In this document: positions 31,153 to 35,335 of the stretch, piece by piece
Layout of the letters: each line of letters opens with the position of its first letter
Numbering within the stretch: position 1 is the stretch's first letter
Source: a virus
IMG/VR virus record: IMGVR_UViG_3300008448_000309
Coordinates: 1-35,335 of that record
Reading direction: 5' to 3' (one strand)
Length of the DNA stretch: 35,335 nt
The notes under the pieces: model-generated
What the model was told of the DNA's origin: nothing
Seen by the model: only the letters and a program-made list of their open reading frames with translations
Database searches by the model: none
Made by a program: the position numbers and the translations under genes

Positions 31153-32122
31153 TGATATCTCCTGCTTCATTAAAGACTACCTGACAACCAAATTCTCAGG
31201 AAAATTTAAATTATCTAGTAATGGTAGGGAATTGATGATGAACTCCCCTGTAGACCCGACAGATAGAAAGCAGCACTTTTCTATCAATTTGGAAACAGGG
31301 TTGTGGCAGGATTTCCGTAAAGGGGAGAAGGGTAACTTCTACTTCCTCTATAGTTATCTAGAGGGGGTCACATACAAACAAGCAGTTAAAGAAATCCACA
31401 TCCGCAGCATTAACAAAGAGCCTCTCCCAGCTACGGTCATTGAGGCTCCGTCTAGCTCCATCAAGGAGGAGATGAAGAACTTTGTACCAATCCTGCTAGA
31501 CAAGCAGCCCGAATCAGAACTAGAGATTGCTGCTTACCTGTACTTAAGTGATCGTAAGATACTAAATAACAAATACCCATTCTTTGTTGCTATGGATGGT
31601 AGATTCTACGGGCGCGTGATCATCCCGTTCTGGAGAAACGATGATTTAGTGTATTTCCAAGCCAGATCACTTATCGGTCAAAAACCTAAGTACCTAAACC
31701 CCGGAGCAGAGTTTGGTCTTAAGAGCAAGAGCTACCTATTCCCCTTTGATCTCTCAGAGCGGTATGTCGTTGTATGTGAGGGTCCGACTGATGCAATTTC
31801 CCTACAACTACAGGGCGTAAACGCTACTGCTACCCTAGGATGCTCTCTCAGCGTAACTCAATCAAGAATGCTTGCAGGCTTCCAAGGTCGCATTATTGTA
31901 GGGTACGATAACGATAGTGCAGGCAAAGCAGGACTAAAGAATATCCATACTACAATTAATTGCCAAAGATTCCTCCCCATCAGCTACTGCTTCCCAGACA
32001 GTCGATACAAGGATTGGAACGAAATGCATGTAGATAACATTAACCTCAGACAGTATGTAAAAGAGAACACCCGAGAGTATGATTCCCGGGTGTTTGAAAT
32101 AAGTTCCGTACTAGGTATTTAG
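31145..32122 (+). CDS. DnaG-type primase with TOPRIM domain, lacking zinc ligands
   Basis: The start at ATG 31145 gives 325 aa; a TTG seven codons earlier (31124) would lengthen it but extends further into the nuclease gene. Residues 33-80 match the layout of the DnaG zinc-binding domain (NSPVDPTD, FSINLETGLWQDF, KGNFYFLYSYLEG), but the Cys/His ligands are absent. The TOPRIM core follows: VVVCEGPTDAI with E212, VGYDNDSAGKAG with D255 and D257, and YKDWNEM with D290. It would lay down RNA primers with a replicative helicase that is not in this window. SD is weak (GGAA 15 nt upstream). The end overlaps the opposing 311-aa gene by 4 bp. Confidence 0.85.
   Translation: MNIDISCFIKDYLTTKFSGKFKLSSNGRELMMNSPVDPTDRKQHFSINLETGLWQDFRKGEKGNFYFLYSYLEGVTYKQAVKEIHIRSINKEPLPATVIEAPSSSIKEEMKNFVPILLDKQPESELEIAAYLYLSDRKILNNKYPFFVAMDGRFYGRVIIPFWRNDDLVYFQARSLIGQKPKYLNPGAEFGLKSKSYLFPFDLSERYVVVCEGPTDAISLQLQGVNATATLGCSLSVTQSRMLAGFQGRIIVGYDNDSAGKAGLKNIHTTINCQRFLPISYCFPDSRYKDWNEMHVDNINLRQYVKENTREYDSRVFEISSVLGI
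32066..32094 (-). terminator. candidate terminator hairpin for 311-aa gene transcript
   Basis: A perfect 8-bp inverted repeat, AACACCCG (32066-32073) and CGGGTGTT (32087-32094), has a 13-nt loop. In the minus direction it lies 25 nt beyond the stop of the 311-aa gene and is followed by CTCTTTTAC, a short U-rich run. In the plus direction there is no U tract. The hairpin is inside the 3' end of the primase coding sequence. Confidence 0.45.
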
Positions 32123-33054
32123 TCTAATATTAGGTACATTAAATCGGAGACTATAGTTTCTCGTAATATATTGTATTTTACTTGTATAGAGTAAGTGCCT
32201 GTTAAAGGTCCAAAAGTTCCTGCTGCAACAGCGGGTAATGTAGCTATTGTGGCAGTATTCCAGTTAAACACGATTGTGTTATCACCTGTAATATCAACGC
32301 CGGAAGTTGTATCTGTAAATGAGCTAACTGTAACTCGTGCAGGTAATGTGTAATCGTCGTTTAGTTTTACTATTTGTACCTGTGCAGATGTAATCGCAGC
32401 ATCCTCAAAGGTGTTTCTAATACTTCTACTTATGTTTTTATTACCTATATTTATCTCGGTAACAACTTTTAAATCAACCTTTGAGCCTAGTTTAACATGC
32501 TTGTTAGTTAGCCTGTTTGTAGTGCTAATTAGTAAAGGTTCTGTGCTTGTGAAGATTGTATCTCTGTACAAACGGAAATCATTTATGAAGATTTCCCAGT
32601 CGCTATTTTGCACCCAGCGGACAGTCCAAATGTCTATGTAATCACCAACAGAAGATGCTTTGTTTGCTATTGTGGTTCCTTCATAGGATCCTGACAAAGC
32701 AACCTGCCCATTCAAAACTGTTACATATTCGCCTGTTGATAGCTTATAGATGCCGTTAGCTGTTGTTCCGGGTGTGTAGTTAGACGCATCAAAAGTGGCG
32801 TTGGTAGTTAGTGTGGCAGCATTCTTGAAGCCCATTTTAACTACGGAGGATGCAATAGTTGGATCTATTAAATTAGCTGATGTCAGTATTGTGCTGGGGC
32901 TGGTATTGTCTGCTAGAGTGAATACTGTTACTGAACTAATTTCATAAGGATCCTGAAAGACCCCGTTATTAATGAAAAAGCATCTAAGGCCCACAGGTTG
33001 TAGCACTGAAGGTCTATTATTCCGATCATAAACTGTGTAACCGTTAACTAGCAT
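32119..33054 (-). CDS. virion structural-type protein of unknown function
   Basis: The 311-aa protein is Ser/Thr/Val/Asn-rich and nearly all beta, without signal peptide or enzymatic motif. The N-terminal segment (LRCFFINNGVFQDPYEISSV, residues 23-42) resembles starts of structural proteins I recall from T4-like phages. A middle part (120-170) has VGDYIDIWTVRW and the C-terminus has YSIQVKYNILRETIVSD. The ATG (33054) overlaps the end of the -1 frame extension of the gp26-family gene by 11 bp, so the two are probably translated together. The 3' end overlaps the primase by 4 bp. Confidence 0.65.
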   Translation of the reverse strand: MLVNGYTVYDRNNRPSVLQPVGLRCFFINNGVFQDPYEISSVTVFTLADNTSPSTILTSANLIDPTIASSVVKMGFKNAATLTTNATFDASNYTPGTTANGIYKLSTGEYVTVLNGQVALSGSYEGTTIANKASSVGDYIDIWTVRWVQNSDWEIFINDFRLYRDTIFTSTEPLLISTTNRLTNKHVKLGSKVDLKVVTEINIGNKNISRSIRNTFEDAAITSAQVQIVKLNDDYTLPARVTVSSFTDTTSGVDITGDNTIVFNWNTATIATLPAVAAGTFGPLTGTYSIQVKYNILRETIVSDLMYLILD

Positions 33055-33220
33055 GTTTATTCATAGCCTCCATACGCTCTCGGTGTAATTCCAAGAAAAT
33101 CAGTCTTTCTCGTCTAGACATCCTCAGAACATCCGCATAGGTCATGTGGACATCATGTACTAGTATATAGGCTTCTCTAAGTAGAACCTCTAAATTTAAA
33201 ATAGGTTCTAATTCACGGTA
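33044..33220 (-). CDS. -1 frameshift extension of gp26-family protein
   Basis: From the slippery run of seven T (minus strand 33226-33220), the -1 frame is open for 58 codons to TAA at 33046-33044. The peptide begins YRELEPILNLEVLLREAY and continues to MTYADVLRMSRRERLIFLEL before a charged end. An internal in-frame ATG exists (start of MTYADV) but has no SD, and 25 open codons precede it, so independent initiation explains the frame poorly. A (S/T)Y-x-(D/E)-(V/L)-x-x-(M/L)-x-x-x-E-R pattern is common in the T parts of tail assembly chaperones. The fusion product would be 302 aa. Confidence 0.7.
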   Translation of the reverse strand, partial: YRELEPILNLEVLLREAYILVHDVHMTYADVLRMSRRERLIFLELHRERMEAMNKHAS

Positions 33221-33226
33221 AAAAAA
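33182..33226 (-). promoter_or_regulatory. programmed -1 frameshift signal: slippery site plus stem-loop
   Basis: In the zero frame the codons are GAT TTT TTT ACC, giving the heptamer T_TTT_TTT at 33226-33220. After a 9-nt spacer an 8-bp perfect stem TAGAACCT/AGGTTCTA (33210-33203 with 33189-33182) closes a 13-nt loop. The zero-frame UAG stop is part of the stem. The elements and spacing are those of bacterial and phage -1 frameshift sites. Confidence 0.75.
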
Positions 33227-33994: not shown

Positions 33995-35335
33995 ATGAAA
34001 ATTTTTATAAAAAACTTAAATTCCCGAATAGAAACTGATAACCCACGGTTACTTAAAGCCCTCGTAGATAGATATACCCATTCGATTCCCGGAGCTAATT
34101 ATTCAAACGCATACAAGCGAGGACATTGGGACGGTAAAAAATATTTCATCCACCCGCGCACGGGGGAGTTTAAAACTGGGTTGTTAGATTTAATTTTGGC
34201 AGATTTAAAACTTATAGAGTGCGAGCCAGAACTTATCTACGAAGAACCAATTGAACCAAACATTAAAATTCAAGATCATACCTTTGACGGATGGGATCTT
34301 CATGATTACCAAGAGGCTCTTGTTGGTCAGGCCCTAGATAATAAGCGTTGCGTAATAAAATCTCCAACAGGATCTGGCAAGACATTGATTATGGCTTCGG
34401 TCATCAAGGCGTTCGGCCCACAGGCAAAAATCCTCTGTCTGTTCACCAAGAAACAGTTGATCAACCAGACCTACGAGTTCTTGGTCAAGAAATCCCCCGC
34501 AGGCGTAGAACTAACCAAGACAAAGGAATTTTCCGTAGGAGTTTCGTTCTCGGAAGGTTTTGAATACGGTAACATAATGTTATGTTCCGTTTACAGCCTA
34601 GAGCGTTTAATTGGCACTCCGCACGAGCGTCCAGATGTTTTAATTGTAGATGAATGCCATGAGTTTTCTAAAGGTAAACTTACATCTGAAGCCATCAGTT
34701 CTTTCCCTACAGCTAAGTACCGTATTGGATTTACTGCAACTCCTCCTACCGAAGCAATTCCAAAATTTACTTTACAGGGTGGATTAGGGCCTGTTATAAC
34801 CGAAGTAGACACATCATCCTTAATCGAACGAGGGATGCTGGCAAGACCATTTGTTCAAATACTACCGTTGCATACTTCTGCTGATGATCATCTTGATATG
34901 GACTACCGTGGAGTTTACGATAAGTATATTGTGAACAACGAGATGAGAAACCAAGCAATCACATCTATTGTAGAGACTGTTAAAGCAAAAACTCCAGCAG
35001 CGAAAGTATTGATTTTAGTAAACAGTTTAGAACATGGTCAAAACTTAATGCAAAAGATTCCAGAGGCGAAGTACTTACAAGGCTCTGACGATCTGCGTGA
35101 ACGAAACAAGATTATCAAAGACTTTAAAACTAAGAACGAGTTTAAAGTATTGATTGGAACTAAGATTCTGGAGACAGGCGTTAACATTCCAGAAATCACT
35201 CACTTCATAAATGCTAGGGGATTGTTCTCCGAGATCGCCACAATACAGGCACTTGGGCGTGCGCTTAGACTTAACGATTTTTCCGAAAAAGTTTATGTGT
35301 ACGACTTCTATGATGAGGTAAAATATTTAAGTACT
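33995..35335 (+). CDS. uvsW: UvsW-like superfamily 2 DNA helicase, partial
   Basis: The frame is open from ATG 33995 to the right edge (447 codons, C-terminus missing). The N-terminal ~95 residues contain NAYKRGHWDGKKYFIHPRTG, a small DNA-binding module typical of UvsW-type phage helicases. Helicase motifs follow in order: Q-type HDYQ, Walker A SPTGSGKT (123-130), motif II DECH (219-222), motif III TATP (247-250), a motif V segment GTKILETGVNIPE, and motif VI QALGRALRL near the end. T4 UvsW unwinds branched DNA and R-loops, and moves replication from origin to recombination-dependent mode. AGG six bases before the ATG is an acceptable SD. Confidence 0.93.
   Translation, partial: MKIFIKNLNSRIETDNPRLLKALVDRYTHSIPGANYSNAYKRGHWDGKKYFIHPRTGEFKTGLLDLILADLKLIECEPELIYEEPIEPNIKIQDHTFDGWDLHDYQEALVGQALDNKRCVIKSPTGSGKTLIMASVIKAFGPQAKILCLFTKKQLINQTYEFLVKKSPAGVELTKTKEFSVGVSFSEGFEYGNIMLCSVYSLERLIGTPHERPDVLIVDECHEFSKGKLTSEAISSFPTAKYRIGFTATPPTEAIPKFTLQGGLGPVITEVDTSSLIERGMLARPFVQILPLHTSADDHLDMDYRGVYDKYIVNNEMRNQAITSIVETVKAKTPAAKVLILVNSLEHGQNLMQKIPEAKYLQGSDDLRERNKIIKDFKTKNEFKVLIGTKILETGVNIPEITHFINARGLFSEIATIQALGRALRLNDFSEKVYVYDFYDEVKYLST

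Follow-up and report, generated by a model that had tools for sequence, protein, structure and literature searches.

A candidate programmed -1 frameshift in a gp26-family gene of an uncultivated phage, a probable single-gene counterpart of T4 genes 26 and 51

The stretch of DNA analyzed here (the window) is 35,335 nucleotides long and corresponds to positions 1 to 35,335 of the IMG/VR virus record IMGVR_UViG_3300008448_000309. Toward one end of the window, the minus strand carries a gp26-family gene whose 3' end reads GCT GAT TTT TTT ACC GTG AAT TAG (Table 1). Membership of the gp26 family was proposed in a first-pass annotation and is borne out by a match to PF12322, the T4 base plate protein family (E 3.8e-17, 63.1 bits against a cut-off of 24.5). 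The gene also matches phrog_150, a baseplate hub family (E 1.1e-18). The AlphaFold2 model of the 247-aa product has a pLDDT of 82. Its nearest model is that of SP-15 gp26 (E 1e-18), and it is also similar to models named gp26 and T4 gp51-like from T4-like phages. A Foldseek comparison of the gp26 model with the PDB returned nothing at E 0.001 or better, and blastn of the region against phage records returned no match.

The gp26-family gene adjoins a divergently oriented helicase gene (33995-35335, plus strand; phrog_16 DNA helicase, E 4.8e-78) that is perhaps UvsW-like. In T4, uvsW likewise lies near genes 25 and 26. Elsewhere in the window, the minus-strand ORF at 3381-3671 matches a PAAR-motif family (phrog_281, E 1e-20) and probably encodes the tip of a tail spike. 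Among the 26 other ORFs of the window, comparison with PHROGs revealed no recognizable tape measure gene.

The first-pass annotation placed a programmed -1 frameshift signal at the end of the gp26-family gene, and the layout it described is found in full. The gene ends in GAT TTT TTT ACC and contains T_TTT_TTT, the spacer, stem, and loop have the lengths given, the stem starts with the zero-frame UAG, and the -1 frame stays open for 58 codons. The same annotation called the stretch otherwise gene-free, and this is mostly correct, apart from an 11-base overlap between the extension with its stop and the beginning of the ORF listed next (32119-33054). It also judged the combination unlikely to arise by chance, which holds for the heptamer and open frame together and fails for the stem alone. 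A heptamer of the X_XXX_YYZ type occurs in the -1 overlap of three of the 25 window genes checked, and only in the gp26-family gene is it joined by a long -1 frame, which runs 54 codons beyond the stop (17 and 6 in the other two). The stem region of the window folds no better than dinucleotide shuffles over 93 nt (z 0.20), and its stability over 60 nt is not unusual against shuffles (z -0.14).

Table 1. Features of the gp26-family locus in the window.
Feature	Position	Strand	Basis
gp26-family gene, predicted short product TAC-N, 247 aa	33208..33951	-	PF12322; phrog_150; AlphaFold2 model
Slippery heptamer T_TTT_TTT	33220..33226	-	Sequence; T_TTT_TT[TC] conserved across 81/81 loci (window + best 80 of 120)
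9-nt spacer	33211..33219	-	Sequence; longest stem begins 8 or 9 nt past the heptamer in 26/41 representatives
Zero-frame UAG stop (first three bases of the stem)	33208..33210	-	Sequence
Stem 5' arm TAGAACCT	33203..33210	-	Fold; stem length in 41 representatives exceeds synonymous recoding
Stem 3' arm AGGTTCTA	33182..33189	-	Fold; 13-nt loop between the arms
-1 frame extension (TAC-C), 58 codons (33220-33047) + TAA (33046-33044)	33044..33220	-	Joined after gp26 residue 244; dN/dS; gp51 tail profile
Conserved element GAAGCCTATATACT	33162..33175	-	Synonymous conservation; 14-mer scan of viral contigs

The decisive support for the putative frameshift signal is its conservation in relatives. These were found by searching with aligned gp26 proteins of the window type, and the window together with the best 80 of 120 gives 81 loci, with 40-100% amino-acid identity to the nearest query. 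They reduce to 62 distinct loci and to 41 representatives under 80% amino-acid identity. Loss of the T run or an early stop in the -1 frame had been named beforehand as evidence that would speak against the signal. Among the 81 loci (window plus best 80 of 120), the T run is never lost: T_TTT_TT[TC] is in phase in every one, and the first Phe codon is always 15 nt ahead of the stop codon. The 3' codon of the heptamer is TTC in 42 of these loci and TTT in 39. Beyond the stop, 80 of them keep the -1 frame open for 53-62 codons; in the remaining one, the contig runs out after 19 nt. The search used two patterns, one of which included [DN]FF[TS] and thereby constrained the amino acids of the site while leaving its codons free. 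The codons there are NNT TTT TTY in all 62 distinct loci (from the window plus best 80 of 120), compared with a usage of 73% for NAT and 80% for TTT outside the site in the same genes.

The extension evolves as a coding sequence. Over 166 pairs of equal extension length and 70-98% identity, the extension has a pooled dN/dS of 0.175 when read in the -1 frame, against 0.97 (zero frame) and 1.67 (+1 frame); these values are descriptive because pairs share sequences. The pN/pS of the -1 frame over the 166 pairs is 0.26. Among the disjoint pairs listed, 21 of 21 have more synonymous than nonsynonymous changes per site in the -1 frame. Judging by these substitution patterns, the extension is under protein-level selection, and in the -1 frame only.

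Such a sequence could instead be translated separately, as a small gene that has its own start and is coupled to the gp26 end. Small ORFs annotated in relatives (SP15_046, AUZ95433.1, and WWT39326.1) share the extension's stop, as this explanation would have it. It is nevertheless very unlikely, because an ATG, GTG, or TTG is present in the first 15 extension codons of only 4 of 61 distinct loci (from the window plus best 80 of 120; L029, cut by the contig end, is left out of the count). In the window, the first start codon is extension codon 26, which comes after the conserved EAYILV. A separate gene also needs no in-phase T_TTT_TTY, yet 81 of 81 loci (window plus best 80 of 120) have it.

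Stems downstream of the heptamer are longer in the relatives than their coding content predicts. Mean stem length in the 41 representatives is 7.93, whereas 200 synonymous recodings average 6.15 (sd 0.22, max 6.80), and 23 of the 41 have an uninterrupted stem of at least 8 bp (synonymous null: mean 5.9, max 13). By this comparison, the stem is selected across relatives beyond what the encoded protein explains. Its register varies between loci, 13 of the 41 representatives have no uninterrupted stem longer than 6 bp, and RNAalifold over the 41 gave no consensus structure. The folding z-score downstream of the heptamer averages -1.32 in the representatives and is below -2 in 14 of 41. Relative to synonymous recoding, the value is -1.10 past the heptamer and -0.08 to -0.64 in eight windows inside gp26; the next 60 nt are also low (-1.25), so energy alone cannot single out the stem. 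A putative stimulatory structure 5-9 nt downstream of the heptamer is present for the group, and the window's own stem is weak or ordinary.

A fusion could also be made from mRNA of altered length if RNA polymerase slipped on the T run. Runs of 7-8 T are present in 30 of the 62 distinct loci (from the window plus best 80 of 120), but 32 of the 62 have just 6 T, and 6 T is short for transcriptional slippage. The T run is held in the phase needed by tandem tRNA slippage and is followed by a selected stem, and we regard polymerase slippage as extremely unlikely. Another alternative, in which a recent frameshift mutation or an assembly error has split a longer gp26, is compatible with the sequence alone but has a negligible chance of being correct, as the same arrangement recurs in 81 of 81 loci (window plus best 80 of 120) at 40-100% amino-acid identity and the distance to the zero-frame stop does not vary. 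The first-pass reading of the site as a programmed -1 frameshift signal is supported by the conserved heptamer, the selected open -1 frame, and the group-wide selected stem. It is very probable that a programmed -1 ribosomal frameshift yields both a short form (TAC-N) and a long form (TAC-NC) from this one gene.

T4 gp26 (208 aa) is made up of the PF12322 body only, and T4 gp51 (249 aa) has the PF12322 body at residues 1-201 followed by a C-terminal tail. In hhalign, a profile of 44 window-type extensions (the 41 representatives and three more) matches the tail of ten gp51 proteins with a probability of 92% and a score of 33.8. Controls scored at most 17.8 (60 column shuffles) and 8.1 (reversed profile). 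The extension matches the gp51 tail as a probable homolog, and the long form would end in a gp51-like C-terminal domain. In all four window-type proteins tested, the phrog_150 match ends at profile position 233-234 without the extension and at 273-282 with it, for gains of 0.9, 0, 10.8, and 7.0 bits. For the fusions of SP-15 and Atu_ph07, this match ends at the junction. The window extension alone matched no Pfam or PHROGs family, and the extension of L025 alone has a weak match to phrog_634 (E 0.031). A smaller profile, built from nine window-type extensions without L007 and L015, found neither T4 gp51 nor the other extensions.

In the proposed mechanism, ribosomes that do not slip would release TAC-N, a putative T4-type tail assembly chaperone that is gp26-like. 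Some ribosomes would slip by -1 at T_TTT_TTT, at a frequency that is itself a prediction, and bypass the gp26 stop. These ribosomes would append the 58-residue C-terminal domain and produce the gp51-like TAC-NC. By analogy with lambda gpG and gpGT, the role of TAC-N would be to coat the tape measure protein, and TAC-NC, in fewer copies, would recruit tail tube subunits. The pair is most likely the single-gene counterpart of T4 gp26 and gp51.

Gene number was compared in 18 records, 10 of which are contigs and possibly fragments. T4 has two PF12322 copies (26 and 51), 16 records have one each, and Mel-JY01 has none over threshold. The one-copy records that are not contigs include SP-15, LIS04, GXN1, Atu_ph07, and two large uncultured phage assemblies. 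Given a single PF12322 gene and a match to the gp51 tail, one gene seems to make what T4 makes from two. In LIS04, as annotated, the gp26-family gene lies between the tail tube and tape measure genes. In SP-15, it lies between the tail tube gene and the gene for a large putative tail protein, and is likely just upstream of the tape measure gene there as well. The place between tail tube and tape measure is the position of lambda G/GT. A palindromic CTAT[AT]ATAG, maybe a promoter, is found no more than 75 nt upstream of the gp26 start used in 34 of 41 representatives; the window lacks it upstream of gp26 and has only the related GCCTATAATAT there.

Synonymous constraint on the fusion gene, in the window and 41 representatives, is strongest at the element GAAGCCTATATACT, which lies 44 nt past the heptamer. 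The excess of codon identity over expectation, followed across all 302 codons of the fusion, has a mean of 0.019 (sd 0.074) within gp26. The peak of synonymous conservation spans codons 242-263, which take in the heptamer, the loop codons, and GAA GCC TAT ATA, and the excess at these last four codons (260-263) is 0.51. A second, smaller rise (0.33), at codons 300-302, is close to where the fusion overlaps the next gene. Within the element, alanine is encoded by GCC in 37 of 39 cases (expected 0.21) and isoleucine by ATA in 39 of 39 (expected 0.32).

Viral contigs were also scanned with the 14-mer GAAGCCTATATACT alone, a search blind to the heptamer and not subject to the [DN]FF[TS] pattern bias. 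It matched at least 120 stretches and yielded at least 14 distinct sites beyond the 81 loci (window plus best 80 of 120). Among the matches listed, 38 of 80 are in this same frameshift context, and the distance to the heptamer is exactly 44 nt in 37 of these 38, a fixed spacing due in part to conservation of the encoded protein. The remaining 42 of the 80 listed are outside it, one of them (L157) only since its stretch begins too near the element. In the window, the GCCTATATA element is not a repeated motif (5 found with at most one mismatch, 11 expected), and the late-promoter motif TATAAATA is not enriched (3 found, 5.7 expected). A search for a pairing partner of the GCCTATATA/GAAGCCTATATACT element gave none that was consistent (mean pairing probability about 0.5).

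One possible but rather doubtful reading is a composite signal, in which the heptamer, a stem of sliding register, and the fixed GAAGCCTATATACT would act on translation and set the ratio of TAC-N to TAC-NC. The binding partner of GAAGCCTATATACT would then be the ribosome, an RNA, or a phage protein. If true, it would represent a new kind of downstream recoding element. A DNA-level role for GAAGCCTATATACT, e.g., as promoter of the next gene, is equally allowed by the evidence.

A frameshifted tail chaperone is a mechanism already known for helpers of tailed phages, to which the window very probably adds a member. What the uncultivated gp26-family phages appear to contribute is a one-gene, frameshifted form of the T4 26/51 chaperone pair, and this form bears on the origin of the two-gene form of T4. 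The 41 diverged frameshift cassettes provide a test set for the stem, the heptamer, and the extra element. Annotation can also be corrected, since some relatives have annotated small ORFs that are probably pieces of a single fusion. Probable extension fragments are SP15_046 (L003:3794-3913), AUZ95433.1 (L027:3388-3510), and WWT39326.1 (L026:3195-3431).

Among the matches listed in a full-text literature search, no paper was recognizable as dealing with this phage group. Nineteen loci, including the window and both near and more distant relatives, divide into 14 with T_TTT_TT[TC] and a -1 extension and five with a +1 extension, the exact junction in the latter being a guess. The five are L002 (GXN1), L003 (SP-15), L004 (LIS04), L006, and L026. 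SP-15, LIS04, and GXN1 resemble the window in having a gp26-family gene followed by an out-of-frame extension, but their extension is read in +1, and all three have NCC_CGA close to the end of the gene in place of a -1 heptamer signal. With both -1 and +1 extensions present, a change in shift direction seems to have occurred inside the gp26 family.

Lambda G/GT, reportedly described by Xu, Hendrix, and Duda in 2004, has a frameshifted long form with an extra C-terminal domain. The predicted long form of the window is likewise frameshifted with an extra C-terminal domain. The lambda slippery site is a different one, and the two systems are likened here by arrangement only.

Vladimirov et al. 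(2022) are said to have reported that T4 encodes TAC-N and TAC-NC separately as genes 26 and 51, and that several T4-like groups keep the frameshift. The window shares the PF12322 body with both T4 genes, and its extension is a probable homolog of the gp51 tail. T4 has two genes, whereas the window has one gene with a candidate -1 frameshift signal. The available part of one source lists gp26 and gp51 as hub assembly chaperones (PMC3004832).

A parallel described in the accessible portion of a second source is that of the Vandenendeviridae, where TAC-N/TAC-NC and a conserved -1 frameshift are described and the -1 frame is open in every aligned allele (PMC12846349). For T4-like phages, the same portion refers to Vladimirov et al. 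2022 and describes poly-T frameshift signals in TAC-N genes as known (PMC12846349). The TAC genes of Vandenendeviridae and Andersonviridae (Adele), likened here by description only, resemble the predicted signal of the window in that a -1 frameshift falls on a T-rich site near the end of TAC-N, and differ in their invariant motif, GTTTTT, and in a locus upstream of the tape measure gene, as far as that portion describes them (PMC12846349).
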